Shown here piece by piece: positions 28,170-46,360 of a stretch of 64,000 bases of DNA. The notes under the pieces are model-generated. The model was not told where the DNA came from and did not search any database. It saw nothing but the letters and a program-made list of their open reading frames with translations. The position numbers were made by a program, and so were the translations under genes. The number at the start of each line of letters is the position of its first letter. Position 1 is the first letter of the stretch. The DNA comes from Lacipirellula parvula (lineage in GTDB: Bacteria; Planctomycetota; Planctomycetia; Pirellulales; Lacipirellulaceae), in contig NZ_AP021861.1 in the NCBI RefSeq assembly GCF_009177095.1, positions 5,996,501 to 6,060,500 of the forward strand. Direction: 5' to 3'.

Positions 28170-29603
28170 TCAGGCAATCAGTTGCTTGACCACTTGGCCG
28201 TGGACGTCGGTGAGGCGGAAGTCGCGGCCGGCGTGGCGGTAGGTGAGGCGTTCGTGGTCGAAGCCGAGCAGGTGCAAGATCGTCGCGTGCAGGTCGTGGA
28301 CGTGGACGCGGTTCTCCACCGCTTTGAAACCGAAGTCGTCGGTGGCGCCGTAAACTTGGCCCCCCTTCACGCCGCCGCCGGCGAGCCAGGTGGTGAAGCC
28401 GTAATGATTGTGATCGCGGCCGTTGACCTTGCCTTGGTTGGCGCCGGCCGTCGGTAGTTCGACCGACGGCGTGCGCCCAAACTCGCCGCCCCAAATGACG
28501 AGCGTCTCATCGAGTAAGCCGCGCTGCTTCAGGTCGACCAAGAGGGCGCCGATCGCCTGGTCGCACTCGCCGGCGAGCTTGCGGTGGATGATCTCGAGGT
28601 CGTCGTGGCTGTCCCACGGCTGACCCTCGCCGTGCCACACCTGCACGAAGCGGACGCCGCGCTCGACGAGCCGACGGGCGATGAGGATTTGCCGCGCCTG
28701 CGTGCCGGGGCCGTACATGTCGCGGATGTACTGCGGCTCGCGGCTGACGTCGAACGCCTCGGCCGCCTCGGTTTGCATGCGGAAACCAAGTTCGTACGAC
28801 TGAATGCGGGACTCGAGCGCGGCGTCGTCCTGACGAGCCTGCTGATGGCGGAGATTGAGCTTCGCGAGCAAATCGAGTTGCTCGCGTTGCCGCGGCAGCG
28901 AGATCGCCTCGTTTCGGATGTTTTCGATCAGCTGCTCGATTGCCGTGTGCTGCGTGTCGAGGTAAGCGCCTTCGAACGCCCCGGGCAAGAAGCCCGATTG
29001 CCAGTTCTGTGTTTCCTGAATCGGATAGCCGTTGGGGCACATCGCGACGAACGCCGGCAGGTTTTGATTCTGCGAGCCGAGGCCGTAGCAAACCCACGAG
29101 CCGAGGCTGGGGCGAATCTGCCGAGCGTCGCCGCAGTTCATTAGCATCAGCGACGGCTCGTGATTCGGCACGTCGGCGTGCATCGAGCGGATGACGGCGA
29201 TGTCGTCGATCGACTCGGCAGTCTTCGCAAAGATCTCACTGACTTCAATGCCGCTCTGGCCGTACTTCTTGAACTTGAACGGCGAGCCGAGGGCGGCGCC
29301 GGTGGGACGTTCAGTAGCGAGATTTTGCGTCGGCAGGTTCTGGCCGGCGTATTTGTTGAGCAGCGGCTTCGGATCGAACGTGTCGATGTGCGAGGGGCCG
29401 CCGTTCATGAAGAGATGAATGACGTGCTTCGCCTTCGCCGGGAAGTGCGCGACCCGCGGCAGGAGCGGGTTGGCGATTTCAGCGGAAGACGCTTCGCCGG
29501 CCAGCATGCTGCCGAGGCTGAGCGCGCCGAGGCCCATGCCGCAACGCTGCAGCAACTCGCGACGAGTGAGAGCGAGATGTTCCGGGCGAGGTTGGTGGGG
29601 CAT
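28170..29603 (-). CDS. DUF1501 Tat-exported protein
   Basis: A 477-residue member of DUF1501, a planctomycete alkaline-phosphatase-like family related to sulfatases. Start at the ATG 29603; the upstream in-frame TTG lacks a ribosome site. Tat-type N-terminus (LTRRELLQRCGMGLGALSLG). Metal-site-like segments are HLFMNGGPSHIDTFDPK and LVIWGGEFGRTPS. It follows the DUF1549/1553 cytochrome gene, and this pair is a constant planctomycete arrangement. The partner reaction is unproven; the pair is thought to act in the periplasm. Confidence 0.9.
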   Translation of the reverse strand: MPHQPRPEHLALTRRELLQRCGMGLGALSLGSMLAGEASSAEIANPLLPRVAHFPAKAKHVIHLFMNGGPSHIDTFDPKPLLNKYAGQNLPTQNLATERPTGAALGSPFKFKKYGQSGIEVSEIFAKTAESIDDIAVIRSMHADVPNHEPSLMLMNCGDARQIRPSLGSWVCYGLGSQNQNLPAFVAMCPNGYPIQETQNWQSGFLPGAFEGAYLDTQHTAIEQLIENIRNEAISLPRQREQLDLLAKLNLRHQQARQDDAALESRIQSYELGFRMQTEAAEAFDVSREPQYIRDMYGPGTQARQILIARRLVERGVRFVQVWHGEGQPWDSHDDLEIIHRKLAGECDQAIGALLVDLKQRGLLDETLVIWGGEFGRTPSVELPTAGANQGKVNGRDHNHYGFTTWLAGGGVKGGQVYGATDDFGFKAVENRVHVHDLHATILHLLGFDHERLTYRHAGRDFRLTDVHGQVVKQLIA

Positions 29604-29631
29604 GGTTCCGACTCTCTGATTCAAACAATGC

Positions 29632-29716: not shown

Positions 29717-32416
29717 TCAATCCACAAACGCAAACTCATTACACATCAACAGCACCTGCGCCAGTTGCGACCAGCGGTCGAGCGGCGCCGGCGCGGCGGT
29801 GCGCGGGCCGTCGATGCCGTCGAGCGTGTTCCAAGCTTCCACTGAGCCGTCTTCGCGGGTGAGAGTAATATTCGCTCGCCAGAAGAACGTGTCGTGGTGG
29901 TGATTGTTTTCGATCGAATCGACGATCAGGTCGATCGTGTCGCCCGCGCTGACGGGGAATGATTCCACGCTCGTTGCGCTGCCGCCGGTCGGCACATGCC
30001 ACTCGCCAACGCGGCCGCGAGCGCTGGAGACGATGCGCCCCAGCACGCCGTTACCTTCGGCGGCGTGCCGCTGCAGTTCGCCTTCGATCCGCAGCGTGCC
30101 GGCGGCGGGGACGGTGAAGCGGCGGATCGCGGCGTGCGTTGCGTCGCCGGGATGCCCGCCTTGGACGTTGAGCATCGCCCAGCCGGCCTCGACTTCGGGA
30201 AATGCTTCGCCGCCGTTCCAAGTTCCGTTCGCGAAGTGCGGGAACTGATGGAAGTCGGCGCGGTCGCTCAGCGGATCGTACGTGCCGTAGCCATACTGCC
30301 ACCGCGGCTGAGAGGCGACCTGCGCGGCCGCATCGGCCTGGGCGCCGGCGGCGACGAACGTGGCGGCCTCGGCGATTTCCTCGACGCTTGGCTTGCGTCC
30401 GAGCGCGAATTGATAGAGCTGCGAAACGCGATCGGTGTCGGCCAGCGGCGGCGAGTTCTCCGGCACGGCGGCGCTCCGCTCGGCAAGGCCCCGCGCTTGC
30501 TCGATCGCGAACGGGCTGTTGAGCATGAACAACGCTTGGCTCGGCGACGCCGTTTGCGGACGGGCCGCGGCGGGGGTGTTCGGATTCGCGAAGTCGAATG
30601 TGCGGAAGAACGCCGGCAGGTTCTGGCGTTCGATGAAGCCGTAGATCGCGCGGCGATTCGAATAAGGAGCGGTCGTGAGCTGCACCGACGGACCGCCCAT
30701 CGTCACGTCGAGCCGGCCAGCTGCCTGCAGCAAGCCGTCGCGAAGCGATTCCATGTCGAGTCGGCGGCGATTCATGCGGGCCAACAGCGCGTTCGTCGGG
30801 TCGACCTCGTGGCAATCGGGCCGCGGGGCGCTTGACTGGCGGTAGACGTTCGACGTCACGATGCGGCGGATGAGCCGCTTCGTCGACCACGACTCATCCA
30901 TGAACGTGACCGCGAGCCAATCGAGCAGTTCGGGGTGCGTCGGCGCCTCGCCGCGAACGCCGAAGTCGCTCGGCGTCGCCACGATGCCGCGGCCGATCAG
31001 CCTGCCCCACACGCGGTTCACCCACACGCGAGCGGTGAGCGGGTTGTTGCGGCTGGCGATCGCGTTGGCGAGTTCCAGACGGCCGCTGCCGTTTTGAAAT
31101 GGCTGCGGCTCGCCTTCGGCAAAGCAACTGAGGAAGTGCCGTGTCACCTCCGGCCCCGGCGACCCGTTGTTGCCGCGGAGGAAGATGTGCTGCGTCGCCG
31201 GTTGCGGGGCGTCGGCCATGGCCGCGGGCAGATCGTCGCGCGGCGTTTCGGTGCAACTCGCCAGCACGCCGTAGAGCGAATAGTAGTCGGCCGTCGGAAT
31301 CGCATCGTACTTGTGATCGTGGCAGCGAGCGCACGCAACGCTCAGCCCCATCAGCCCGCGGGTCATCAAGTCGATGCGATCGTCGTTGATTAGTTGGGAA
31401 TCGTTGAGGAATCGCCGGCCGAGCGTGAGGAACCCGCTCGCGGCCGCGGCGTTCGGATCACCCGACTGGTCGGCGGCAATCTGATTGACGACGAACCGGT
31501 CGAACGGCATATCGCCGTTGAACGCGCTGATCACCCAATCGCGGTACTTGAAGGCGTTCGGGTAATTGCGGTCTTCTTGAAAGCAGTAGCCCTTTGTGTC
31601 GGCGTAGCGGGCGACGTCGAGCCAGTAGCGGCCCCAGCGTTCGCCGAACTGCGGCGACGCGAGCAGCCGGTCGACGGCTTGTTCGTACTCGGCGTCGCTG
31701 GAGTTAGCGGCGAATTGCTCCAACTCGGCGGCGGTTGGCGGCAGACCAGTGAGATCGAAGTGGAGCCGACGGAGTAGCGTTCGCGGATCGGCGGCGGGCG
31801 ATGGTTTGACATTCGCCGCTTCGAGCCGCGCGAGGATGAACGCATCAATCACCGTGCGCGTCCACGCGCGATCGGCGACTGCGGGCGCCGCGACTTTTTG
31901 CGGGGCCTTGAGCGACCAATGATTGCGCGGGTCGACCGTCGGCGCCTCGTCGGCAGTGGCCGCTTCATTGCGCGGGTCGGGGGCGCCCATCGCCACCCAT
32001 TGTTCGAAGTCGGCAATGATCTCGTCGGAGAGCTTGCCCGACGGCGGCATCTCGTACGATTCGTACTTGAGCGCCGAGATGAGCGTGCTCTCGGCCGGAT
32101 TGCCGGGTTCAATCACCGCGCCGCCGGGGCCGCCGTTGCGGAGATGCTCGGCCGAGTCGAGCCGGAAGTCGCCCTTCGGCGAACCGGCCGCAGCGGAGTG
32201 GCACGAGTAGCAATGCTCGACCAGCACGGGGCGGATGCGGGTTTCGAAGAATTCGACCGCCGCGGGGTCGAGCGCGGCCTCATCGGCGCGAGCGAAGGAG
32301 ACAGCCAGCAGTGACGACAGCGAGAGAGCCAGCAACGATACCGGAGCGCGGCGCCAAAGCTTCCGCGCAACATGAGTATTCCTCAATCGTCGCAACGCAT
32401 CCCGCATGGCGATCAT
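29717..32416 (-). CDS. Planctomycete cytochrome PSD1 protein (DUF1549/DUF1553)
   Basis: An 899-residue exported protein. A long hydrophobic signal (about 24-42) is followed by a cytochrome-type motif C-Y-S-C-H (69-73) in the PSCyt1 domain, then DUF1549 (HFDLTGLPPTAAELEQF, WGRYWLDVARYADTKG), DUF1553 (RVWVNRVWGRLIGRG) and a C-terminal beta-rich region (GGHPGDATHAAIRRF) typical of these proteins. It should be a periplasmic heme protein working with the DUF1501 protein downstream. The region between YYSLYGVLASCTETP and the DUF1553 start is short (HIFLRGNNGSPG follows almost at once); in many relatives a coiled-coil linker of about 100 residues is there. Possibly a naturally compact form. Confidence 0.9.
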   Translation of the reverse strand: MIAMRDALRRLRNTHVARKLWRRAPVSLLALSLSSLLAVSFARADEAALDPAAVEFFETRIRPVLVEHCYSCHSAAAGSPKGDFRLDSAEHLRNGGPGGAVIEPGNPAESTLISALKYESYEMPPSGKLSDEIIADFEQWVAMGAPDPRNEAATADEAPTVDPRNHWSLKAPQKVAAPAVADRAWTRTVIDAFILARLEAANVKPSPAADPRTLLRRLHFDLTGLPPTAAELEQFAANSSDAEYEQAVDRLLASPQFGERWGRYWLDVARYADTKGYCFQEDRNYPNAFKYRDWVISAFNGDMPFDRFVVNQIAADQSGDPNAAAASGFLTLGRRFLNDSQLINDDRIDLMTRGLMGLSVACARCHDHKYDAIPTADYYSLYGVLASCTETPRDDLPAAMADAPQPATQHIFLRGNNGSPGPEVTRHFLSCFAEGEPQPFQNGSGRLELANAIASRNNPLTARVWVNRVWGRLIGRGIVATPSDFGVRGEAPTHPELLDWLAVTFMDESWSTKRLIRRIVTSNVYRQSSAPRPDCHEVDPTNALLARMNRRRLDMESLRDGLLQAAGRLDVTMGGPSVQLTTAPYSNRRAIYGFIERQNLPAFFRTFDFANPNTPAAARPQTASPSQALFMLNSPFAIEQARGLAERSAAVPENSPPLADTDRVSQLYQFALGRKPSVEEIAEAATFVAAGAQADAAAQVASQPRWQYGYGTYDPLSDRADFHQFPHFANGTWNGGEAFPEVEAGWAMLNVQGGHPGDATHAAIRRFTVPAAGTLRIEGELQRHAAEGNGVLGRIVSSARGRVGEWHVPTGGSATSVESFPVSAGDTIDLIVDSIENNHHHDTFFWRANITLTREDGSVEAWNTLDGIDGPRTAAPAPLDRWSQLAQVLLMCNEFAFVD

Positions 32417-32679: not shown

Positions 32680-34209
32680 CTAAGAGCGGTCTGGAGACGT
32701 TGCGATTGCTCGTAACTTCTTTCTCATCGTTGCGGCCTGCTCCGGATGCTTGTTGACGAGGTTCGTCGTCTCGTCGAACTCGGCGGAGAGGTTGTAGAGC
32801 GCGCCCTTTTTGGCAACCTTCGTCGGCGGCCCAGGGTTGAGGCTGTCGCGCGACGGTCCCGCAGGGACGAACTTCCAAGGTCCCATCCGCAGCGAGTGCG
32901 GATCGCGGCCTTCATGCACCAGATGCGGCCGGCCGGTCTTATCCTCGCCGAGCAGCGCGTCGAGTTCGTCGCGGCTGTCTTGGCAAGCACCGGTCGGAAT
33001 CTTCGCGCCGGCAAGCGCCGACAGCGTTGCCGCGAGGTCGACCTGCCCAAACAGCGCGCCGGTCGTCCCGCCGGCCGGCACGCGGGCGGGCCAGCGAACG
33101 AAGAACGGCACGCGGGTTCCCCCTTCGAACGCCGAGTACTTCCCGGCACGGTACGGTCCATTAGGATCGTGCTCGCCGAGCAACTCGTTCGCTTGGTCGA
33201 CGTAACCGTCGTCGAGCACCGGCCCGTTGTCGGAGCTGAAGATCACGAGCGTGTTGTCGGCGAGGTTGTGCTTCTCGAGCGAGTCGAGCACTTGGCCTAC
33301 GGTCCAATCGAGTTGCATGATCGCATCGCCGCGGAGGCCGTGGCCGCTCTTGCCTGCGAAGCGCGAGTGAGGCACGCGCGGTACATGGATGTCTTGCGTG
33401 GCGAAGAACAGGAAAAACGGCTCGGCATGATGCCGCTCGATAAAGTCGACGCCCTGCCCTGCGATCACGTCGGCCATCTCCTCGTCGATCCACCGAGCCT
33501 GCTCGCCGCCGGTCATCCAACCGATGCGGGAGATGCCGTTGACGATCGACTGATCGTGCCCATGCGACCAGCGCTGCTTCAGCTTTTCCGGCTGCTCGGC
33601 GCCCGACGGGGACAGGTCGATTCTCTCGGCATAGCTCACTTCGATCGGATCGGCCGGATCGAGATCGACGACGCGACCGCCGGAAACGTAAACGCAAGGC
33701 ACACGATCGCCCGTGGCGGCAATGATAAAATGTTCGTCGAAGCCAATTTGCTCGGGACTTGGTTTGATCGGCTCATTCCAGTTCACCTTCCCTTCGCCGA
33801 GCCCGAGATGCCACTTGCCGATCACGCCAGTCTTGTAGCCGACGCTCTGCAGCAAGCTCGCGATCGTTGGCGTACCAGGCTTGATAATGAGGTTCGCATC
33901 GCCGGGCAAGATGCCGGTCCCTTCCTGGCGAAACGCATACTGCCCCGTCAGCAACGCGAACCGTGACGGCGTACAGGTTGGCGCCGAGGAGTGCGCGTCG
34001 CGAAACGCAAGCCCTTGCTGGGCGAGCTTGTCGATGTTCGGCGTCGGAATCTTGCCGCCGTTGATCGAGACGTCGCCGTAGCCGAGATCGTCGGCGTAAA
34101 TCAACACGATGTTAGGGCGCGCGACGCCGGCCGGCTCCGCGGCCTGCAGCGGCGCTACGTTGATCAGTATAGCGGACAGACCGAACAGAATCGAAACGAC
34201 GCGTGTCAT
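32680..34209 (-). CDS. Sulfatase part, possible separate start
   Basis: An ATG at 34209 starts a 509-residue arylsulfatase A-like protein with its own signal peptide (VVSILFGLSAILINVAPLQA), metal site YADDLGYGD, the formylglycine motif C-T-P-S-R at 79-83 and TLVIFSSDNGPV. An AAGG lies about 10 bases upstream, so independent translation is possible. It shares its frame with the kinase, and whether the product is separate, fused or both cannot be decided here. It should remove sulfate from an exported substrate. Confidence 0.7.
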   Translation of the reverse strand: MTRVVSILFGLSAILINVAPLQAAEPAGVARPNIVLIYADDLGYGDVSINGGKIPTPNIDKLAQQGLAFRDAHSSAPTCTPSRFALLTGQYAFRQEGTGILPGDANLIIKPGTPTIASLLQSVGYKTGVIGKWHLGLGEGKVNWNEPIKPSPEQIGFDEHFIIAATGDRVPCVYVSGGRVVDLDPADPIEVSYAERIDLSPSGAEQPEKLKQRWSHGHDQSIVNGISRIGWMTGGEQARWIDEEMADVIAGQGVDFIERHHAEPFFLFFATQDIHVPRVPHSRFAGKSGHGLRGDAIMQLDWTVGQVLDSLEKHNLADNTLVIFSSDNGPVLDDGYVDQANELLGEHDPNGPYRAGKYSAFEGGTRVPFFVRWPARVPAGGTTGALFGQVDLAATLSALAGAKIPTGACQDSRDELDALLGEDKTGRPHLVHEGRDPHSLRMGPWKFVPAGPSRDSLNPGPPTKVAKKGALYNLSAEFDETTNLVNKHPEQAATMRKKLRAIATSPDRS

Positions 34210-35664
34210 GCCGCTGCCTTGGAAGGGACTCTCTTCAGTGGTCGCACTATCGGCGAGCGGCAACGTCACCGTGAAGGTCGTGCCCCGATCGATCACGCTG
34301 TTGAACGCAATCTCGCCGCCGTGATTATGAACCACCGACTGACAGATGCTAAGCCCCAACCCCGTGCCGCCGACGCCGGGGCTGCGCGTGCGAGCCGATT
34401 CCGCGCGGAAAAATCGTTGAAAAATGTGCTGCTGCTCTTCGTTCGAGATGCCGGTTCCCGTGTCCGCAATGCTGAGCCGCACGCTCGTCCCGTCGACGAT
34501 CGCCTCGACTGTCACCTCGCCGCCGGCAGGAGTGTACTTCACGGCGTTGTCGAGCAGGTTGTTGAGCACCTGCCGGAGATGGTTGCGGTTCCCTTCGACC
34601 AGCGCGTAGTCGACGCGGCCGACGCGCAGTTTCACCCCGCGAGCTTCCGCAACGCCAGAGAACATGTCGACTGCTTTGAAAGTCAGGTCGTTCAAATCAA
34701 CGCGTTGAAACTGAGCCACCGGAAGCTCCGCCTCGGTTTCGGACAGCAGCAGCAACTGATTGACGAGCGCTTCGAGCGCGCCGCACTCTTCGATCACATC
34801 GACCATCAGGTCTTCGTATTCCTCGGGAGAGCGAGCGCCGTTGAGGGCGACTTCGACCGAACTCCGAATCGCGGCAAGCGGCGTCCGCAGTTCATGCGCC
34901 GCGTTCGCCAAGAAGTCGCGTTTTACGTTCAAGTACGCAGCAATACGATCGAGGAGGCTGTTGATCGTCTCGGCAAGCTGATCGAGTTCGTCGCCTGAGC
35001 CGCGAATGATCAAGCGTTCTTCGAGGTGGTTGGGGCGCAATCTCGCGGCGGTGGTGATGATCTCGCCCAAGGTGTGCACGGCGCGAGACGCAAGCCAGTA
35101 CCCGCCAATCGGCGCCGCCAACAGCACCGCGGCGGCGGCCAGCAACACCCAGCGATCGATCCGCGCCATGTCCTCGTTGATGCGATCGAGCGTGGCGCCG
35201 ACGCGGATGCCGGCCACGCCGTCGATCGCATGGGGAGCCCGCATCTGCACGATGCGATACCCCTCAAAAGTCACCGGAGTTGCATCCTCATCGATATTGG
35301 GCCGCGGCAATCGCGGACGCGCATCTTGAGTCGCCCATAGCTGATCGCCGCGATCGTCGACCAGCTTCACATACCAACCACGATGCTCGTGGCTTTGCGC
35401 CATGCGCTCCAGGTCGGTCTTCAGCGACTCCAAATTGCCGTGATGCACCGAGTTGATCGAAAGCACAATTTCATGCGCATCGTCGATGAGCACCTGGTCG
35501 AGTTCGTGCACGAGCGCCCAGCGCACTCCTTGGCGCAGGCCGATCAGCGTCACCAGCGCCGTGATAATGACGACGATGGCGTTCCAGACGGCGAGTCGAA
35601 ACCGCAAAGTCCGCCACGTCGGCCCCTGAGACTTCGTGCGTTTGGCGGGATTCAACGACGGCAT
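32680..35664 (-). CDS. Histidine kinase fused in frame to a sulfatase
   Basis: A single open frame of 994 residues. The start at 35664 (MPSLNPAKR) is preferred to an upstream GTG at 35712. Residues about 1-480 are a sensor kinase: TM1 about 25-46, an extracytoplasmic sensor, TM2 about 172-194, HAMP, the H box FLANAAHELRTPLAA (His about 257), N box NLLDNAVKYTP, G box GGTGLGLSI, ending in a normal TFTVTLPLAD. The frame then continues without a stop through PFQGSGMTRVV into a sulfatase with its own hydrophobic signal, metal site YADDLGYGD and formylglycine motif C-T-P-S-R. The reading frame was checked by eye over 34201-34260. The response regulator gene is just upstream. Either a true fusion with cytoplasmic kinase and exported sulfatase, or two genes of which the first lost its stop. 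Confidence 0.8.
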   Translation of the reverse strand: MPSLNPAKRTKSQGPTWRTLRFRLAVWNAIVVIITALVTLIGLRQGVRWALVHELDQVLIDDAHEIVLSINSVHHGNLESLKTDLERMAQSHEHRGWYVKLVDDRGDQLWATQDARPRLPRPNIDEDATPVTFEGYRIVQMRAPHAIDGVAGIRVGATLDRINEDMARIDRWVLLAAAAVLLAAPIGGYWLASRAVHTLGEIITTAARLRPNHLEERLIIRGSGDELDQLAETINSLLDRIAAYLNVKRDFLANAAHELRTPLAAIRSSVEVALNGARSPEEYEDLMVDVIEECGALEALVNQLLLLSETEAELPVAQFQRVDLNDLTFKAVDMFSGVAEARGVKLRVGRVDYALVEGNRNHLRQVLNNLLDNAVKYTPAGGEVTVEAIVDGTSVRLSIADTGTGISNEEQQHIFQRFFRAESARTRSPGVGGTGLGLSICQSVVHNHGGEIAFNSVIDRGTTFTVTLPLADSATTEESPFQGSGMTRVVSILFGLSAILINVAPLQAAEPAGVARPNIVLIYADDLGYGDVSINGGKIPTPNIDKLAQQGLAFRDAHSSAPTCTPSRFALLTGQYAFRQEGTGILPGDANLIIKPGTPTIASLLQSVGYKTGVIGKWHLGLGEGKVNWNEPIKPSPEQIGFDEHFIIAATGDRVPCVYVSGGRVVDLDPADPIEVSYAERIDLSPSGAEQPEKLKQRWSHGHDQSIVNGISRIGWMTGGEQARWIDEEMADVIAGQGVDFIERHHAEPFFLFFATQDIHVPRVPHSRFAGKSGHGLRGDAIMQLDWTVGQVLDSLEKHNLADNTLVIFSSDNGPVLDDGYVDQANELLGEHDPNGPYRAGKYSAFEGGTRVPFFVRWPARVPAGGTTGALFGQVDLAATLSALAGAKIPTGACQDSRDELDALLGEDKTGRPHLVHEGRDPHSLRMGPWKFVPAGPSRDSLNPGPPTKVAKKGALYNLSAEFDETTNLVNKHPEQAATMRKKLRAIATSPDRS

Positions 35665-35721
35665 GGCGTCATTCCGTGAAAGTGGTCTGCAAGGCCGCGT
35701 CTCGCTCCGCACGAACGTCGT

Positions 35722-36393
35722 TTAGACGCCCTTGAGCACGTAGCCCCGACCGCGGACGGTTTGCAACAACGGCTCGCCGAAGTCGCGATCGATCTTCCCG
35801 CGCAGTCGCGTGATGTGGACTTCGATCACGTTGGTCACGCCTTCCCAATTCGAATCCCACAGATGCTCGCTCAGCATCTTGCGGGTCAGCACTTGCCCCG
35901 CGTTCCGCATCAGGAACTCAAGCAGGCTGAACTCGGTTGGGGTGAGATCGATTTCTTGACCGTCGCGCGTAACCCGACGCGTCGCCAAGTCGAGCGACAG
36001 CGGCCCGACGCACAGACTCTGAGCCGTCAGATTGTGGGCGCGCCGTGCCACGGCCGAGAGCCGCGCGAGCAGTTCGGGAAACGAAAATGGCTTGATTAGA
36101 TAGTCGTCGGCGCCGGCGTTCAGGCCGTCGACGCGTTCCTCCACAGAGCCCAAGGCAGTCAGGATGATCACCGGCGTGCGGATTCCCTGGCTGCGGATGG
36201 TGCGGAGCACGTCGATACCCGACTGATCCGGGAGCATCAGGTCGAGGACGACGGCGTCGCACTTCTGGGCGACGACGACGTCGAGCCCCTTCGCCCCGGT
36301 GGCGGCGAGCGTGCAACGATGACCGGCGTCTTCGAGACCGCGGCGAATCGCTTTCCCGAGAATGTCGTCATCTTCTACGACAAGGACTTCCAT
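35722..36393 (-). CDS. OmpR/PhoB-type response regulator
   Basis: A 223-residue regulator. Receiver domain: acidic pocket VVEDDD (5-10), phospho-acceptor D51 (AVVLDLMLPD) and conserved K101 (DYLIKPF). The C-terminal winged helix-turn-helix is of the OmpR kind (LTPTEFSLLEFLMRNAGQVLTR, VHITRLRGKI, TVRGRGYVL). It resembles the CusR/CopR branch, and the partner kinase is CusS-like, but the signal (metal or other) is not shown. The kinase gene follows after 57 bases. It may control the sulfatase that is fused or coupled to the kinase. Confidence 0.93.
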   Translation of the reverse strand: MEVLVVEDDDILGKAIRRGLEDAGHRCTLAATGAKGLDVVVAQKCDAVVLDLMLPDQSGIDVLRTIRSQGIRTPVIILTALGSVEERVDGLNAGADDYLIKPFSFPELLARLSAVARRAHNLTAQSLCVGPLSLDLATRRVTRDGQEIDLTPTEFSLLEFLMRNAGQVLTRKMLSEHLWDSNWEGVTNVIEVHITRLRGKIDRDFGEPLLQTVRGRGYVLKGV

Positions 36394-36712: not shown

Positions 36713-39700
36713 ATGCAATTCCGAGTCACCGCTGGCCGCTTTTTCAAACATGAAAAACAACCGCACCGATTAAACAGCTCCCGCCCGTCGCCTCCCCCTC
36801 CCTCCCAGCTCGTAATCGGAGCTCCTCCCGCTGTGGCGCTAACTGCTTCTTCTGAGCGCCCTGCCCCGATCGACCTTTCTCCAGAGAAAGCCGATCGCTT
36901 GCTTCGTTCGATCGAGCAGGCCGCCCATCTGCTGCCGACTCAGGGCCCGATCACGGTCTTCGTCCATCATAATACGCTCCACGCCTTCGAGGAGTTGCGC
37001 TTCGACGCGGCGCTCGGCCGCTCGCAACGCGTCTACGGCAGTCAACCGTTCCTGATGGAAGAACGCTACCGACGCGAACTCGCGCGCGGGCGAATCAAGG
37101 AAGCGGATCTCGCCGCCGTCCTCGAAGCAGACCTCGCCGATCGCGCCGACGAACTCATCGGGCTGCTGGGAACGCGTTTCCACCTCCGGCTCGCGATGCT
37201 CAAGCATTCGCTGCGCACGGCGCCGAGCCCCGAACTACGGTGGGTGGTCGCCGAGACCGACGCGCTGCGCACCTTTCGCAGCGACGTCCCGCCGGAGATT
37301 CGCCGGCGACTGGTCGAGGGAACGCGTCGCTGGATCATGCGCGACTTCCGTGCGGGTGTCGCGAATTCGGGACAACTAAGCGAGCCGTTGCTGGAGCAGT
37401 TGATTGAGAAAACACTCGATCAGTTTGATCGCCAAAAGATCGAATCGTGGCACGACGCCCAGTGGGAGGAAGTTTGTTTGCAACTCTTGTGGCGACTTTC
37501 TTTCGACGGCGTCCAGCGCACCGGCCGAACGACTCCCGCCCCGCCGGCAGCCCTGCGCCACCGCGACGCCCTGCTGCAGGCGACCGGAGTCGACGCCGAC
37601 GAGTTGGCCAACGAAGTGCTGATTCGCTACGCCGCGGCCTTCCTCGACCAAGGGTACGCCCACTGGCCGCTTCCTGATCGCGACGCCGGGTTCTATCAGT
37701 CGTTCCTGAGAGTGTACGGTCATTCGGGAGGCGTCGTTCCCCACTGGCTCATGGGGATCAAACGCGAACTTGCCAGACTGCAGCGCGAGCAAGTCACGCC
37801 GCTCGCGTGCATCGAGGAATCGCTCGACCTCCTCGGCGTCTCGGCCGAGGAACGCGACGAGTTCATCGCGGCGTCGTTGCTTGCGCTGCGCGGCTGGGCC
37901 GGCATGATCTGGCAGATGGAGACGAACGCCGAATGGGCCGTACGGCCGGCGCCGCGCGGCACGCTCGTCGAATTCCTGGCGGTACGGCTGCTGCTCGATC
38001 GCTTCGCCGCCGCTCACATCGCGAAAGAAGCGCTGGGCGATGCGGAGCCGCTCGCAATGCTTCGCTCACGAGTCACCGCAATTCACGCCGCGCGCACGCC
38101 CACCGGCAAGACGCAACTGGCGTTCTTGGTTTTCCAGCTCTGCCAAGTGCGGGGCGTCCTGCCTGAAGAACTCTTCCGTTTGCCTGAAAAGACTTGGGGG
38201 CAGCTGGCGGACGAGCTGTCCGCCTTCGACGACTTCGAGCGCCGCCGCACATTTCAGTTGGCCTACGAGCGCCGCTACCGCAATCAAACGCTCGACGCCC
38301 TCGCGATTCACAACCGCTGCCAGCAGCCGAATGACGCCGCCTCGCGGCAGGCGCCTTCGTTCCAGATCGTTTGCTGCATCGACGACCGCGAAGAATCGTT
38401 CCGGCGCCACTTGGAGGAAGTCGATCCTGCGTGCGAGACGCTTGGATACGCCGGCTTCTTCGGCGTGGCGATGTATTACCGCGGCGTTGCCGACGCCCAC
38501 AGCCGGCCTCTGTGTCCGGTGGCAGTCAAACCGCAGCATTACGTCAAAGAACTGCCGGCGTACGCACTCGAAGAAGTCGATCGTCGTCGGTCGCGCTTTC
38601 GGCGGCTGTTCGGCGCGGCTTCGCATCAGTTTCACCGGGGCAGCCGTTCGCTTCTCGGCGGCGCCGTCACGGCCCTCTTCGGCACGCTGGCGTCCGTGCC
38701 GCTCGTGACTCGGATCCTGTTTCCGCGCATTTCCGCGCAGATCCGCAAGCTGTTCGGTCAGATCGTTCGCCCGCCCGCAGCAACGCAGTTGCTGCTTGAG
38801 CGAAGCGAAGCGAAGCCCGGCCCCGACGCAGGCCACGTGGGCTACAGCGTCGACGAAATGACCGACGTCGTCGAGCAGACGCTTCGCGATACGGGACTTA
38901 CTCGCAATTTTTCACGACTGGTACTGTTCTGTGGACATGGTTCGTCCAGCTTGAACAACCCGCATGAAAGCGCCTACAACTGCGGCGCTTGTAGCGGCGG
39001 CAGCGGCGGACCGAATGCCCGCGCCTTCTGCCAAATGGCAAACGACCCACGCGTCCGAGCGAGACTGGCAGACCGCGGGCTCGACATTCCCGCAGAAGCC
39101 TACTTCATCGGCGCGTTTCACAACACCTGCACCGATGGCGTCGACTACTTCGATCTCGATCGCCTGCCGGCCGCCCACCAAGAACTGTTCGCGACGACGC
39201 GGCGAACCATCGACGAAGCGCGGCGCCGCAACGCCCACGAACGCTGCCGACGTTTTGAATCGGCGGAACTATCGCTCACGCCCGCCGCGGCGCTCGCGCA
39301 TGTCGAGCTCCGCTCGGAAGACTTGTCGCAAGCGCGGCCCGAGTACAATCACGCGACCAACGCAGCAGTCTTCGTCGGACGACGTGCACGGAGCCGCGGG
39401 CTTTTCATGGATCGGCGCACCTTCCTGGCGTCGTACGATCCGACGCAAGACGCCGAGGACGGGGCAATCCTGGCAAGAATCCTCGCCGCGGTAATCCCCG
39501 TTTGCGCGGGCATCAATCTGGAGTACTACTTCTCCTGCGTCGACGTCGAGGGCTACGGCTGTGGCTCAAAGTTGCCCCACAACATCACGTCGCTGCTGGG
39601 GGTGATGGAAGGGGCGTCGAGCGATTTGCGGCCAGGGCTTTCGGCCCAGATGATCGAAATCCATGAACCGCTCCGAATCCTGTTCGTCATTGAAACAACG

Positions 39701-39982
39701 CCGGCCGCACTGGAGCGAATCATGACCGCCAACCCGACGATCGCGCGGCTTTGCCGCAACGAGTGGGTGCAACTGGCGACGTTGAGTCCTGAAAACGCGA
39801 CGATCCACCTCTTCAGCAACGGGCGATTCGAGCGATACGTTACCGAATCCGACCAACTGCCCGAAGCAGCGGCTTCGATCGATTGGTACCGCGGCTGGCG
39901 CGATCATCTGGGCTACGCTTCAATCAAAGCGTCCGTCTCGCCAACTCCCGCTTCCAGGCTCAAGGGGAGGACGCCGCGATGA
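36713..39982 (+). CDS. dabA: DabA-like inorganic-carbon transporter subunit (DUF2309)
   Basis: A protein of up to 1089 residues of the DUF2309 family, whose characterised members (Halothiobacillus DabA) are zinc-containing, carbonic-anhydrase-like subunits of a complex that accumulates inorganic carbon. Zinc-site motifs are present: [13 protein letters not shown] and, later, [12 protein letters not shown] with NCGACSGG. The N-terminal [14 protein letters not shown] matches the family. The end overlaps the next gene by four bases (ATGA). The start is uncertain: the ATG at 36713 gives a 40-residue low-complexity N-terminus, while a GTG at 36833 would give 1049 residues, close to the family size. 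Two mini-ORFs overlap the first ATG. Confidence 0.9.
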
Positions 39983-43592: not shown

Positions 43593-44258
43593 ATGCAAAA
43601 ACTAGTAGACGGCGTTCATCGCTTCCAAAACGACGTGTTCTCCACGCACGAGCGCTTCTTCAAGCGGCTCGTCGAGGGCCAAAAGCCTCTGGCGCTGTTC
43701 ATCACCTGTTCGGACTCGCGCATCGATCCGAACATGATCACTCAGACCGAGCCAGGCGAACTATTCATCCTCCGCAATGCGGGGAACATCGTTCCCACCT
43801 ACTCCAATACCAGCAGCGGTGAAGCGGCGACCATCGAGTACGCCGTCGCCGTCCTCGGCGTGCAGGATGTCATCGTCTGCGGCCACTCCCACTGCGGCGC
43901 CATGGGCGCACTGCTCGACCCGAGCCAGGTGACGAACCTCCCTTCGGTGCGCGGCTGGCTCGGCCACGCCGAGGCGACTGCTCGCATCATTCGCGAAAAT
44001 TACGGACACATCACCGATCCGCAGGCAAAGCTCACCGCGACCGTCGAGGAAAACGTCCTCGTCCAGCTTGAAAACCTCCGCACTCATCCCAGCGTCCTAG
44101 CTGCGATGGGGCGCAACGAGTTGCGGCTCCACGGTTGGGTTTACAAGTTCGAAACAGGCCAAGTCTTCGCATTCAATCCGCAAGACGGACAGTTCGAATC
44201 GGTGGGCGACCAAGGCTTCGAGCCCCGTCCGATCATGCCGCACTTGCGAGCGATCTAA
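43593..44258 (+). CDS. Beta-class carbonic anhydrase
   Basis: A 221-residue beta carbonic anhydrase interconverting CO2 and bicarbonate. Zinc ligands: C39 (FITCSDSR), H98 and C101 (CGHSHCG); the D41/R43 dyad is intact. Full length for the family, with no signal peptide, so cytoplasmic. It stands between the DAB operon and the SulP gene, which fits a carbon-concentrating or CO2-supply function. The ribosome site is weak. Confidence 0.95.
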
Positions 44259-44401: not shown

Positions 44402-46360
44402 ATGAACAAACCTGAACCAGCCTCGCCGCTGCGTTATTGGAAGCAAGACTTCCTCTCGTCGATCGTCGTCTTCTTCGTCGCCCTCCCCCTCTGCATGGGC
44501 GTTGCGCTCGCGTCCGGCGCCCCGGTGGCGGCGGGCCTCATCACTGGTATCGTCGGCGGCATCGTGGCCGGCTCGCTCGCCGGTTGTCAGCTGCAAGTCA
44601 GCGGTCCCGCCGCCGGCCTCACCGTCATCGTTTTTGAAATCATCCAGCGGCTTGGCCTCGAAATGCTTGGCCTCGCCGTCCTCATTGCCGGCGCGATGCA
44701 GATCGTCGCCGGCGGACTGAAGCTCGGCCCCTGGTTCCGCGCCGTCTCGCCCGCCGTCATCCACGGCATGCTCGCGGGCATCGGCGTCCTCATCTTCGCC
44801 AGCCAGTTCCATGTGATGGTCGACGACAAACCGCGTCGTAGCGGCTTGGAAAATCTCGCGACCATCCCGCAAGCGATCTACAAGACATTCAACGGCCCGC
44901 CGCTTGCCGGCGAAGAAGAGCGCATCTTCCGCCGCCACGCTCTGCAGGAGATGGCCGACCTCCATCACGATCAGATCAACATGCGGGTCCACGCCGCGGA
45001 GCTCATTCCTTACGCGCACATCGCCCCAGCGAGCCCGGCGCTCGAGCAAGTCGAAGAACCGCAGCTCAAAACGCTCATCCCCGAGCAGGAACGCATCACG
45101 CGACACCTGCTGCAACTTCGCGACGAGATGATTACGGCCGAGGGCGCCTCGGACGGCCAAGTTCACCTCGACGCGGCCAAGGTCGCGCTCCAGGAGGCGA
45201 TCGTCCGTAGCGAAGCTGCTGAGGCGGCGCTTCGCTCAGGCAAAGCGGTTGATGCGATCGCTACGCAAGAGGCCGCCGTGGCCGCGATCGATGTTGCCGC
45301 CAAGCGGCTGAGGAACCATCGCATTGCCGCGATCCTTGGCATCGGCACGATCGTGATCATCATCCTGTGGCAAAAACTCTCGCCGCGGAAGCTTCGGCTC
45401 GTCCCGGCGCCGCTGATCGCGATCGTCGCGGCGCTGCTGGCTGCTTACTTCCTGATGCTGCCCGTATTCTACGTCGAACTCCCCGGCAGCCTGTGGGAGG
45501 AGGTTCGCCTGCCGACGCTCACGCTGTTGCAAAACGCCCATTGGGGCGAGCTGCTGCAAACCGCGGCGCTTATCGCCATTATCGCCAGCGCCGAAACGCT
45601 GCTGTGCGCCACCGCCGTCGACCAACTGGCGCATGGTCAACGCACGAACTACGACCGCGAACTGACGGCTCAAGGAGTCGGCAATATCATCTGCGGCACG
45701 CTCGGCGCGCTGCCGATGACCGGCGTCATCGTCCGCAGCTCAGCTAATGTCCAGGCCGGCGCCAAAAGCCGCCTCTCGACCATTCTTCATGGCGTTTGGC
45801 TGTTGGTGTTCGTCGTCGCGCTCGGCGGCCTCTTGCAGATGATTCCCACCGCCAGCCTCGCCGCGGTGCTCGTCTACACCGGTTACAAGCTGGTGAACAT
45901 CAAGGAGATCAAACGACTCCTCGAGTTCGGCTGGGGCGAGGTCGCCATCTATCTGGCGACGCTGATCACGATCGTTGCGAAAGATCTGCTGGTCGGCGTC
46001 GTCGTTGGCATCGCGCTCGCCGCGGCCAAGCTCCTGTACACCTTCTCGCGGCTTGGCATCAAGATTGACCGCGATGAAGCGCAGAACCGCTACCGCATGC
46101 GACTCGCCGGAGCGGCAACGTTCGTCCGGCTGCCCAAACTGGCTGCCGCACTCGAGCAGTTCCCCAGCGATGCGGAAGTTCAGGTCGAACTCGACCGTCT
46201 GTCGTACATCGATCACGCCTGCCTCGAATTGCTCACCTCCTGGGGCGAGCAGCACCAAGCCTCCGGCGGGCGGCTGTCGATCGATTGGGACACGCTACGC
46301 GCCAGTGCGCACCGCTCGTCGCCTCGCAGGAGGACAACTGGCGAACCAGAAGCAGCGTAG
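44402..46360 (+). CDS. SulP-family anion (likely bicarbonate) transporter
   Basis: A 652-residue polytopic membrane protein. The N-terminal region has the SulP core (VALPLCMGVALASGAPVAAGL, GPAAGLTVIVFEII), a second set of helices starts after residue 305, and a C-terminal STAS-like domain lies at about 560-640 (VQVELDRLSYIDHACLELL). Bacterial SulP members such as BicA carry bicarbonate. A hydrophilic insertion of about 140 residues (about 165-305, helix-rich, with Ala/Glu/Gln runs such as EAAEAALRSGKAVDAIATQE) sits between two helices and is unusual. It follows the carbonic anhydrase, so bicarbonate is the likely substrate, although sulfate is possible. Confidence 0.88.
   Translation: MNKPEPASPLRYWKQDFLSSIVVFFVALPLCMGVALASGAPVAAGLITGIVGGIVAGSLAGCQLQVSGPAAGLTVIVFEIIQRLGLEMLGLAVLIAGAMQIVAGGLKLGPWFRAVSPAVIHGMLAGIGVLIFASQFHVMVDDKPRRSGLENLATIPQAIYKTFNGPPLAGEEERIFRRHALQEMADLHHDQINMRVHAAELIPYAHIAPASPALEQVEEPQLKTLIPEQERITRHLLQLRDEMITAEGASDGQVHLDAAKVALQEAIVRSEAAEAALRSGKAVDAIATQEAAVAAIDVAAKRLRNHRIAAILGIGTIVIIILWQKLSPRKLRLVPAPLIAIVAALLAAYFLMLPVFYVELPGSLWEEVRLPTLTLLQNAHWGELLQTAALIAIIASAETLLCATAVDQLAHGQRTNYDRELTAQGVGNIICGTLGALPMTGVIVRSSANVQAGAKSRLSTILHGVWLLVFVVALGGLLQMIPTASLAAVLVYTGYKLVNIKEIKRLLEFGWGEVAIYLATLITIVAKDLLVGVVVGIALAAAKLLYTFSRLGIKIDRDEAQNRYRMRLAGAATFVRLPKLAAALEQFPSDAEVQVELDRLSYIDHACLELLTSWGEQHQASGGRLSIDWDTLRASAHRSSPRRRTTGEPEAA

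Follow-up and report, generated by a model that had tools for sequence, protein, structure and literature searches.

An in-frame histidine kinase–sulfatase gene shared by three Lacipirellula genomes

Introduction

The fbcH gene of Bradyrhizobium japonicum encodes the cytochrome b/c1 precursor, a bacterial polyprotein that is cut at an internal signal peptide. A gene of comparable layout lies in a 64,000-nucleotide (nt) stretch of the Lacipirellula parvula genome (assembly GCF_009177095.1, contig NZ_AP021861.1, positions 5,996,501 to 6,060,500; "the window" in the following). In this gene, a sensor histidine kinase reads in frame into a complete sulfatase, and the same arrangement is found in two further genomes of the genus. 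As in fbcH, a retained signal sequence forms the in-frame link between a membrane protein and an exported one. The parts of fbcH, however, share one complex, whereas here a signalling kinase is linked to an unrelated hydrolase, and cleavage is a prediction. A literature search covering titles and abstract openings yielded no description of a kinase–sulfatase fusion, in line with the original prediction made from the DNA letters, which knew of none; it yielded nothing usable on fbcH or internal signal peptides, nor on the regulation of DabA, the inorganic carbon uptake protein encoded next to the locus.

The kinase half follows the order of the HisKA/HATPase_c sensor kinases, namely a transmembrane segment (TM1), a sensor, a second transmembrane segment (TM2), HAMP, HisKA and HATPase_c, with an adjoining OmpR-type regulator. 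The nearest NCBIfam model, TIGR01386 (heavy-metal sensor kinases), is not reached (240.5 bits against a cut-off of 292.55), and unlike in the proteins of this model, the kinase of the L. parvula protein is followed by a further hydrophobic segment, the third of the chain, and by an enzyme of exported type. The sulfatase half resembles the S1_15 sulfatases of known structure (6s20, 7oze and 9bas) over nearly its whole domain, including the CTPSR motif and an aligned Asp-Arg pair and His. The S1_15 members described in the available portions of the literature are separate proteins, while the L. parvula sulfatase sits behind a kinase. The closest parallel is in Bacteroides thetaiotaomicron, where, in the accessible text of PMC6994673, a sensor (BT3334) and an S1_15 sulfatase (BT3333) are encoded together. 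There, however, the two are separate proteins and the sensor is a hybrid one, in contrast to the single frame and the classical kinase without receiver domain seen here (no Response_reg match within the fused protein at E 0.001 in Pfam, hence not of the hybrid two-component type). Each half is of a known kind; the arrangement of the two appears new to us.

One reading frame in three genomes

A single open reading frame (ORF) on the minus strand spans 32680..35712 and encodes 1010 residues from a GTG, or 994 residues plus stop when started at the ATG at 35664 (Table 1). Within the 994-residue protein, the HAMP, HisKA, HATPase_c and Sulfatase matches all exceed their Pfam cut-offs; the kinase domains score 54.7 bits for PF00512 (cut-off 26.9) and 108.8 bits for PF02518 (cut-off 26.4). 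The motifs HELRTP, NLLDNAVKYT and DTGTGI/GGTGLGL are those we take to be the H box, the N box and the G boxes, respectively, and CTPSR is presumably the formylglycine motif of sulfatases. The HATPase_c domain ends with FTVTLPLA (residue 471), followed by 14 residues and then by Met486-Thr-Arg and a hydrophobic stretch. The codons of the junction (CTC GCC GAT AGT GCG ACC ACT GAA GAG AGT CCC TTC CAA GGC AGC GGC ATG ACA CGC) hold no stop. The original prediction of one uninterrupted frame with both halves intact is thereby borne out, and its figure of 509 residues for a separate sulfatase agrees with a start at Met486, whose codon is at 34207-34209.

Table 1. Features of the fused gene and of its surroundings in the window.
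Feature	Coordinates	Strand	Basis and remarks
Fused ORF: histidine kinase, linker, signal helix, sulfatase	32680..35664	-	994 codons plus stop; ORF list, translation, Pfam
Kinase half, residues 1-485	34210..35664	-	Pfam and sequence
TM1, residues 25-43	35536..35592	-	mean hydropathy 2.39
TM2, residues 173-191	35092..35148	-	mean hydropathy 2.01
HAMP, residues 190-241	34942..35097	-	Pfam
HisKA, residues 248-312, with HELRTP around His257	34729..34923	-	Pfam and sequence
HATPase_c, residues 359-471, with NLLDNAVKYT, DTGTGI, GGTGLGL	34252..34590	-	Pfam and sequence
Linker, residues 472-485, 14 codons	34210..34251	-	same length in three species
Former signal peptide, residues 486-508: ATG, Thr-Arg, hydrophobic helix, possible site LQA-AEP	34141..34209	-	sequence, hydropathy, model
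Sulfatase domain, residues 517-887	33004..34116	-	Pfam PF00884, 179.7 bits
CTPSR motif, residues 564-568	33961..33975	-	sequence
OmpR-type response regulator (Response_reg and Trans_reg_C)	35722..36393	-	57 nt upstream of fused gene; Pfam
dabA (inorganic carbon uptake), divergent	36713..39982	+	Pfam; nuoL-type frames follow
Carbonic-anhydrase-like gene, homolog of sulfatase neighbour in G001/G002	43593..44258	+	kinase-dab segment separates it from sulfatase here
PSCyt1/PSCyt2/PSD1 protein	29717..32416	-	downstream of sulfatase in L. parvula, L031, L032, G001
DUF1501 protein	28170..29624	-	downstream of PSCyt1/PSCyt2/PSD1 gene in L. parvula, L031, L032, G001

Genomes of the 59 nearest relatives, 43 of the family, 396 of the order and 392 of the phylum were searched; these samples overlap and each includes the L. 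parvula genome. The searches used close-homolog queries, strict thresholds and the best 2 to 19 candidates per genome, settings that more distant kinase/sulfatase fusions would escape. Matches spanning both halves occur in three genomes, those of L. parvula (G000), L. limnantheis I41 (G003) and the metagenome-assembled genome PNKX01 (G004). In all three, the linker counts 14 codons, without gap and without stop. The three genes are well diverged, as about 40-65% of the synonymous sites in kinase and sulfatase differ among them, with a pairwise synonymous divergence (dS) of 0.54-1.45 in the two segments.

This distribution bears directly on whether an assembly or sequencing error deleted a stop codon. 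Nothing was found in favour of such an error, and three separately assembled genomes carry the same fusion; the L. parvula genome consists of one contig of 6,922,258 bases, and that of L. limnantheis is recorded as a chromosome. Given that the three genomes agree despite their high synonymous divergence, an error is rejected as practically negligible in probability.

Two other long frames were considered as fusions and rejected. A 1110-residue frame reported for a fourth Lacipirellula genome (G005) must span two stops that its DNA holds in frame. A 1085-residue frame of another genome (L081:1684-4938, G681) was a candidate for an independent kinase–sulfatase fusion; it contains two tandem sulfatases, the second being 55% identical to the L. 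parvula sulfatase.

Both halves of the fused gene are under purifying selection. The ratio of nonsynonymous to synonymous divergence (dN/dS) among the three genes is 0.14-0.31 in TM1 and sensor, 0.07-0.08 from HAMP through the kinase domains, and 0.08-0.13 in the sulfatase. For codons 472-486 (the linker and Met, 15 codons), it rises to 0.53-0.88: the letters drift, while length and frame are held. The spacer between response regulator and kinase serves as a control. From regulator stop to kinase ATG it measures 57, 55 and 38 nt in the three genomes, and to a shared kinase codon 105, 100 and 80 nt, in three different frames, so that neither length nor frame is kept. By a hand estimate at about 62% GC, a stop-free, in-frame junction of 15 codons between adjacent co-oriented genes arises by chance in about 1 of 5 cases; evidence from a single genome is therefore weak, and it is the persistence of the same frame and linker length in two further diverged genomes that lifts the fusion above chance. 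One 15-codon stretch compared with one control suggests that the junction frame would be kept by selection for translation through it. On the regulator side, the TAA of the L. parvula regulator lies in the kinase frame, and positions 35665-35724 hold no further stop between regulator and fusion. The two other fused genomes differ in frame, and the shared frame in L. parvula is probably due to chance.

Origin of the fusion

In the remaining three genomes of the genus that were compared (G001, G002 and G005), kinase and sulfatase are separate. G005 has regulator, kinase and sulfatase adjacent and in the same order, but two stops interrupt the frame, at positions 486 and 540 when codons are numbered from the start of the kinase. 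In G001 and G002, both drafts, the kinase-regulator-dabA-nuoL segment and the sulfatase lie on different contigs, and both kinases end at a stop of their own. The original prediction had held that relatives with separate genes, together with a stop lost in this assembly alone, would speak against a fusion. Separate genes do exist, but the loss is not confined to this assembly, as three genomes share the fusion; the separate genes represent the pre-fusion state and not an error.

The fused kinases form one clade (support 100/99) in a kinase tree of 22 rows, and the fused sulfatases form one clade (100/100) in a sulfatase tree of 35 rows, from which L020 and L021 (identical to L079 and L080) and L022 (a further sulfatase of G015) were removed beforehand. 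Since the fused genes form one clade in both half-trees, a single event is indicated: judging from these trees, the gene is one fixed fusion that arose a single time, in the common ancestor of the three species. The kinase of G005 is the sister of the fused clade (99/98).

The gene neighbourhoods suggest how the two genes met. In G001 and G002, the sulfatase stands directly beside, and divergent from, a carbonic-anhydrase-like gene, and the G001 sulfatase has the PSCyt and DUF1501 genes downstream (the G002 contig is short there). The L. parvula homolog of the carbonic-anhydrase-like gene and a SulP-like gene (44402-46360) lie just past the kinase-dab segment. We assigned the names carbonic anhydrase, SulP and nuoL presumptively, from the sequences. 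The simplest account would be a rearrangement that placed the kinase, regulator and dab segment between the sulfatase and its carbonic-anhydrase-like neighbour, directly upstream of the sulfatase. The stop of the kinase would have been lost afterwards, giving rise to the fusion.

Some features of the unfused loci are recorded here in their own right. The sulfatase match of G002 (L049:2254-3387) is interrupted by one TGA and ends short of full length, which corresponds to a broken gene or to an error in the draft sequence. The gene after the unfused kinase in G001 and G002 (L047:2-226 and L048:7816-9117) encodes a DUF1501 protein unlike the one following the sulfatase: the G001 and G002 proteins are 88% alike over 75 residues and about 30% alike to the L. 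parvula DUF1501 protein. The kinase-sulfatase and regulator-kinase spacers of G005 (L045) hold stretches that by eye resemble inverted repeats, e.g., TTTGCGACCTTTTGTTC with GAACAGAAGGTCGCAAA; these are perhaps inserted elements.

Topology and fate of the signal peptide

Some 130 residues separate TM1 and TM2 and presumably form a periplasmic sensor. A third hydrophobic segment occupies residues 489-507, with a mean hydropathy of 1.95 in L. parvula; in the three fused proteins the values are 1.95, 1.50 and 1.74, within the span of 1.47-2.17 given by the signals of five separate sulfatases. Hydropathy thus supports the predicted layout, in which the sulfatase's own hydrophobic signal is a third segment, with a kinase that would be cytoplasmic and a sulfatase that would lie outside. 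A structure model places a helix at residues 485-502, with predicted local distance difference test (pLDDT) values mostly <50 around it. This model is weak, with a mean pLDDT of 63.6 and 355 of 994 residues <50, mainly in the kinase part, for which the alignment had three rows. Candidate cuts with Ala at position -1 are seen by eye in all three fused proteins (LQA-A, ACA-Q and ARA-Q), and we take them to fit the -3/-1 rule of signal peptidase. The retained signal peptide is a possible cleavage site separating the halves, a point that the original prediction had left unweighed.

Translation as one chain is highly likely on the strength of the conserved frame. The chain would run from TM1 through sensor, TM2 and HAMP to the kinase inside and the linker, after which the old signal peptide would become a third membrane pass, with the sulfatase outside. 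Given one chain, a cut by signal peptidase I is the probable outcome, because the fused proteins keep the signal peptide and, with it, an acceptable cleavage site. The cut would release a free periplasmic 6-O-sulfatase of S1_15 type, and the kinase would retain an additional membrane segment as its tail. The kinase would continue to work with its regulator and probably also for the dab cluster; the sulfatase, now produced at a constant ratio to the kinase, would keep acting on sulfated sugars. Taken as a whole, the interpretation towards which we lean, with modest confidence, is that the fusion is fixed, is translated into a single chain and is probably cut at the old signal peptide.

Alternatively, the chain may stay whole and cross the membrane three times, with the kinase in the cytoplasm and the sulfatase tethered in the periplasm, where it would serve as an additional sensor or act beside the sensor domain. 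This topology needs no cut, three species have retained the fusion without any change in linker length, and in L. parvula the hydropathy of the third segment (1.95) comes close to that of TM2 (2.01). In the other two proteins, however, this segment (1.50 and 1.74) is Ala-rich and falls below their own TM2 (2.13 and 1.87), as in ordinary signal peptides; moreover, cleavage-like sites are kept and the recurrent partners of the kinase lie elsewhere (see below). An uncut chain is accordingly considered unlikely. Its more specific form, a stable kinase–sulfatase in which the exported sulfatase would report substrate or product to the periplasmic sensor of its own kinase, or be held beside it, is slightly less likely still.

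A further alternative is that two products are made, the full fusion and a sulfatase from an internal start at Met486, the fusion being a tolerated read-through of minor importance. The ATG is kept in G000 and G004, preceded by a Shine-Dalgarno-like stretch that is modest in G004 (-5.3, where the lowest tenth of the background begins at -5.6) and weak in G000 (-3.7). Such strengths do not discriminate, as most of the 42 long frames of the window (starts as listed) score near background. In L. limnantheis, by contrast, the ATG is replaced by CTG, and its sulfatase has therefore lost an obvious start; the upstream stretch is weak (-2.4, background median -2.2), with a TTG three codons further on as a possible start. 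A junction drifting freely should also show insertions or deletions, as the regulator-kinase spacer does. Production of two proteins in this manner is held to be improbable.

Several points count against a fusion translated as one chain and cut at the signal peptide. Internal initiation at the ATG is possible in G000 and G004. The linker is short, which makes the absence of stops weak evidence and puts the weight on the absence of insertions and deletions, itself judged by comparison with a single spacer. Drift is seen in the signal segment as well, with dN/dS of 0.42 and 0.51 in two pairs and saturation at synonymous sites in the third. Finally, the sulfatase of G005 groups with those of G001 and G002 (97/88), away from the fused clade; this differs from the placement of its kinase and makes any order in which adjacency and fusion came about tentative.

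Genomic partners of the kinase

The response regulator adjoins the kinase, as had been predicted, and its position points to it as the partner of the kinase. The wider association was followed in 23 kinase loci, those of L. parvula, L031 and L032, 19 further loci (including 16 of the 18 kinase matches listed outside the genus) and L082, added from the phylum sample. The regulator is present in 22 of them, and dabA stands beside the regulator-kinase pair in 13 (L. parvula, L031, L032, L045, L047, L048, L051, L057, L059, L060, L062, L064 and L082). The sulfatase of the fused gene adjoins the kinase in four, all within the genus (three fused and one adjacent). Conversely, none of the 15 sulfatase loci examined outside the genus (out of 39 listed matches) has such a kinase, regulator or dabA within about 6 kb. 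Owing to these counts, the kinase belongs with its regulator and often with a carbon-uptake cluster, and the sulfatase is the newcomer. The OmpR-type regulator and its kinase may control the dabA cluster in planctomycetes.

It had been proposed that the sulfatase is a possible target of the kinase. In its functional form, this would make the two partners, the fusion joining a sensor of sulfated sugars to its enzyme, and the accessible part of PMC6994673 offers a precedent in the single locus of BT3333 and the hybrid sensor BT3334. The gene neighbourhoods do not support a target role, because the sulfatase adjoins the kinase in so few loci as compared with regulator and dabA, nor do they support an old kinase-target pair as the origin of the fusion; the sulfatase loci outside the genus lack such a kinase throughout the sample. 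A functional partnership of this kind is very doubtful.

The sulfatase half

Within the sulfatase, CTPSR is invariant in a 12-row alignment. Matches to solved structures cover nearly the whole domain and include 7oze (7.9e-157), 6s20 (3.5e-155), 9bas (4.3e-152, named S1_15A) and 9bau (1.2e-142, named S1_15B). These structure matches place the enzyme as S1_15-like. Residues D653, R654 and H703 align with the Asp-Arg pair and the His of 6s20, a triad for a galacto-configured sugar. In 6s20, the His is number 225, as in the part of PMC6994673 available, and the pair counts 175/176 against 173/174 in the paper. The structure list of PMC6994673, as far as accessible, gives 6S20 as one of its two structures; together with the chain name, this list suggests that 6s20 is BT3333. 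The S1_15 relatives described in the accessible parts of PMC6994673 and PMC10154612 are exo-6-O-sulfatases for galactose-type sugars, and 6-O-sulfatase activity on galactose/N-acetylgalactosamine is predicted for the fused enzyme.

Significance

The locus is a clear-cut example of how two unrelated genes can merge across the boundary of a membrane. As unfused and adjacent forms survive in the same genus, the fate of a signal peptide placed in the middle of a protein becomes directly approachable. Should the chain stay whole, it would represent a new layout of bacterial sensor, a two-component sensor with a built-in exo-enzyme. Beyond the fusion itself, its surroundings point to a two-component system that recurs beside the DabA carbon-uptake genes of planctomycetes.

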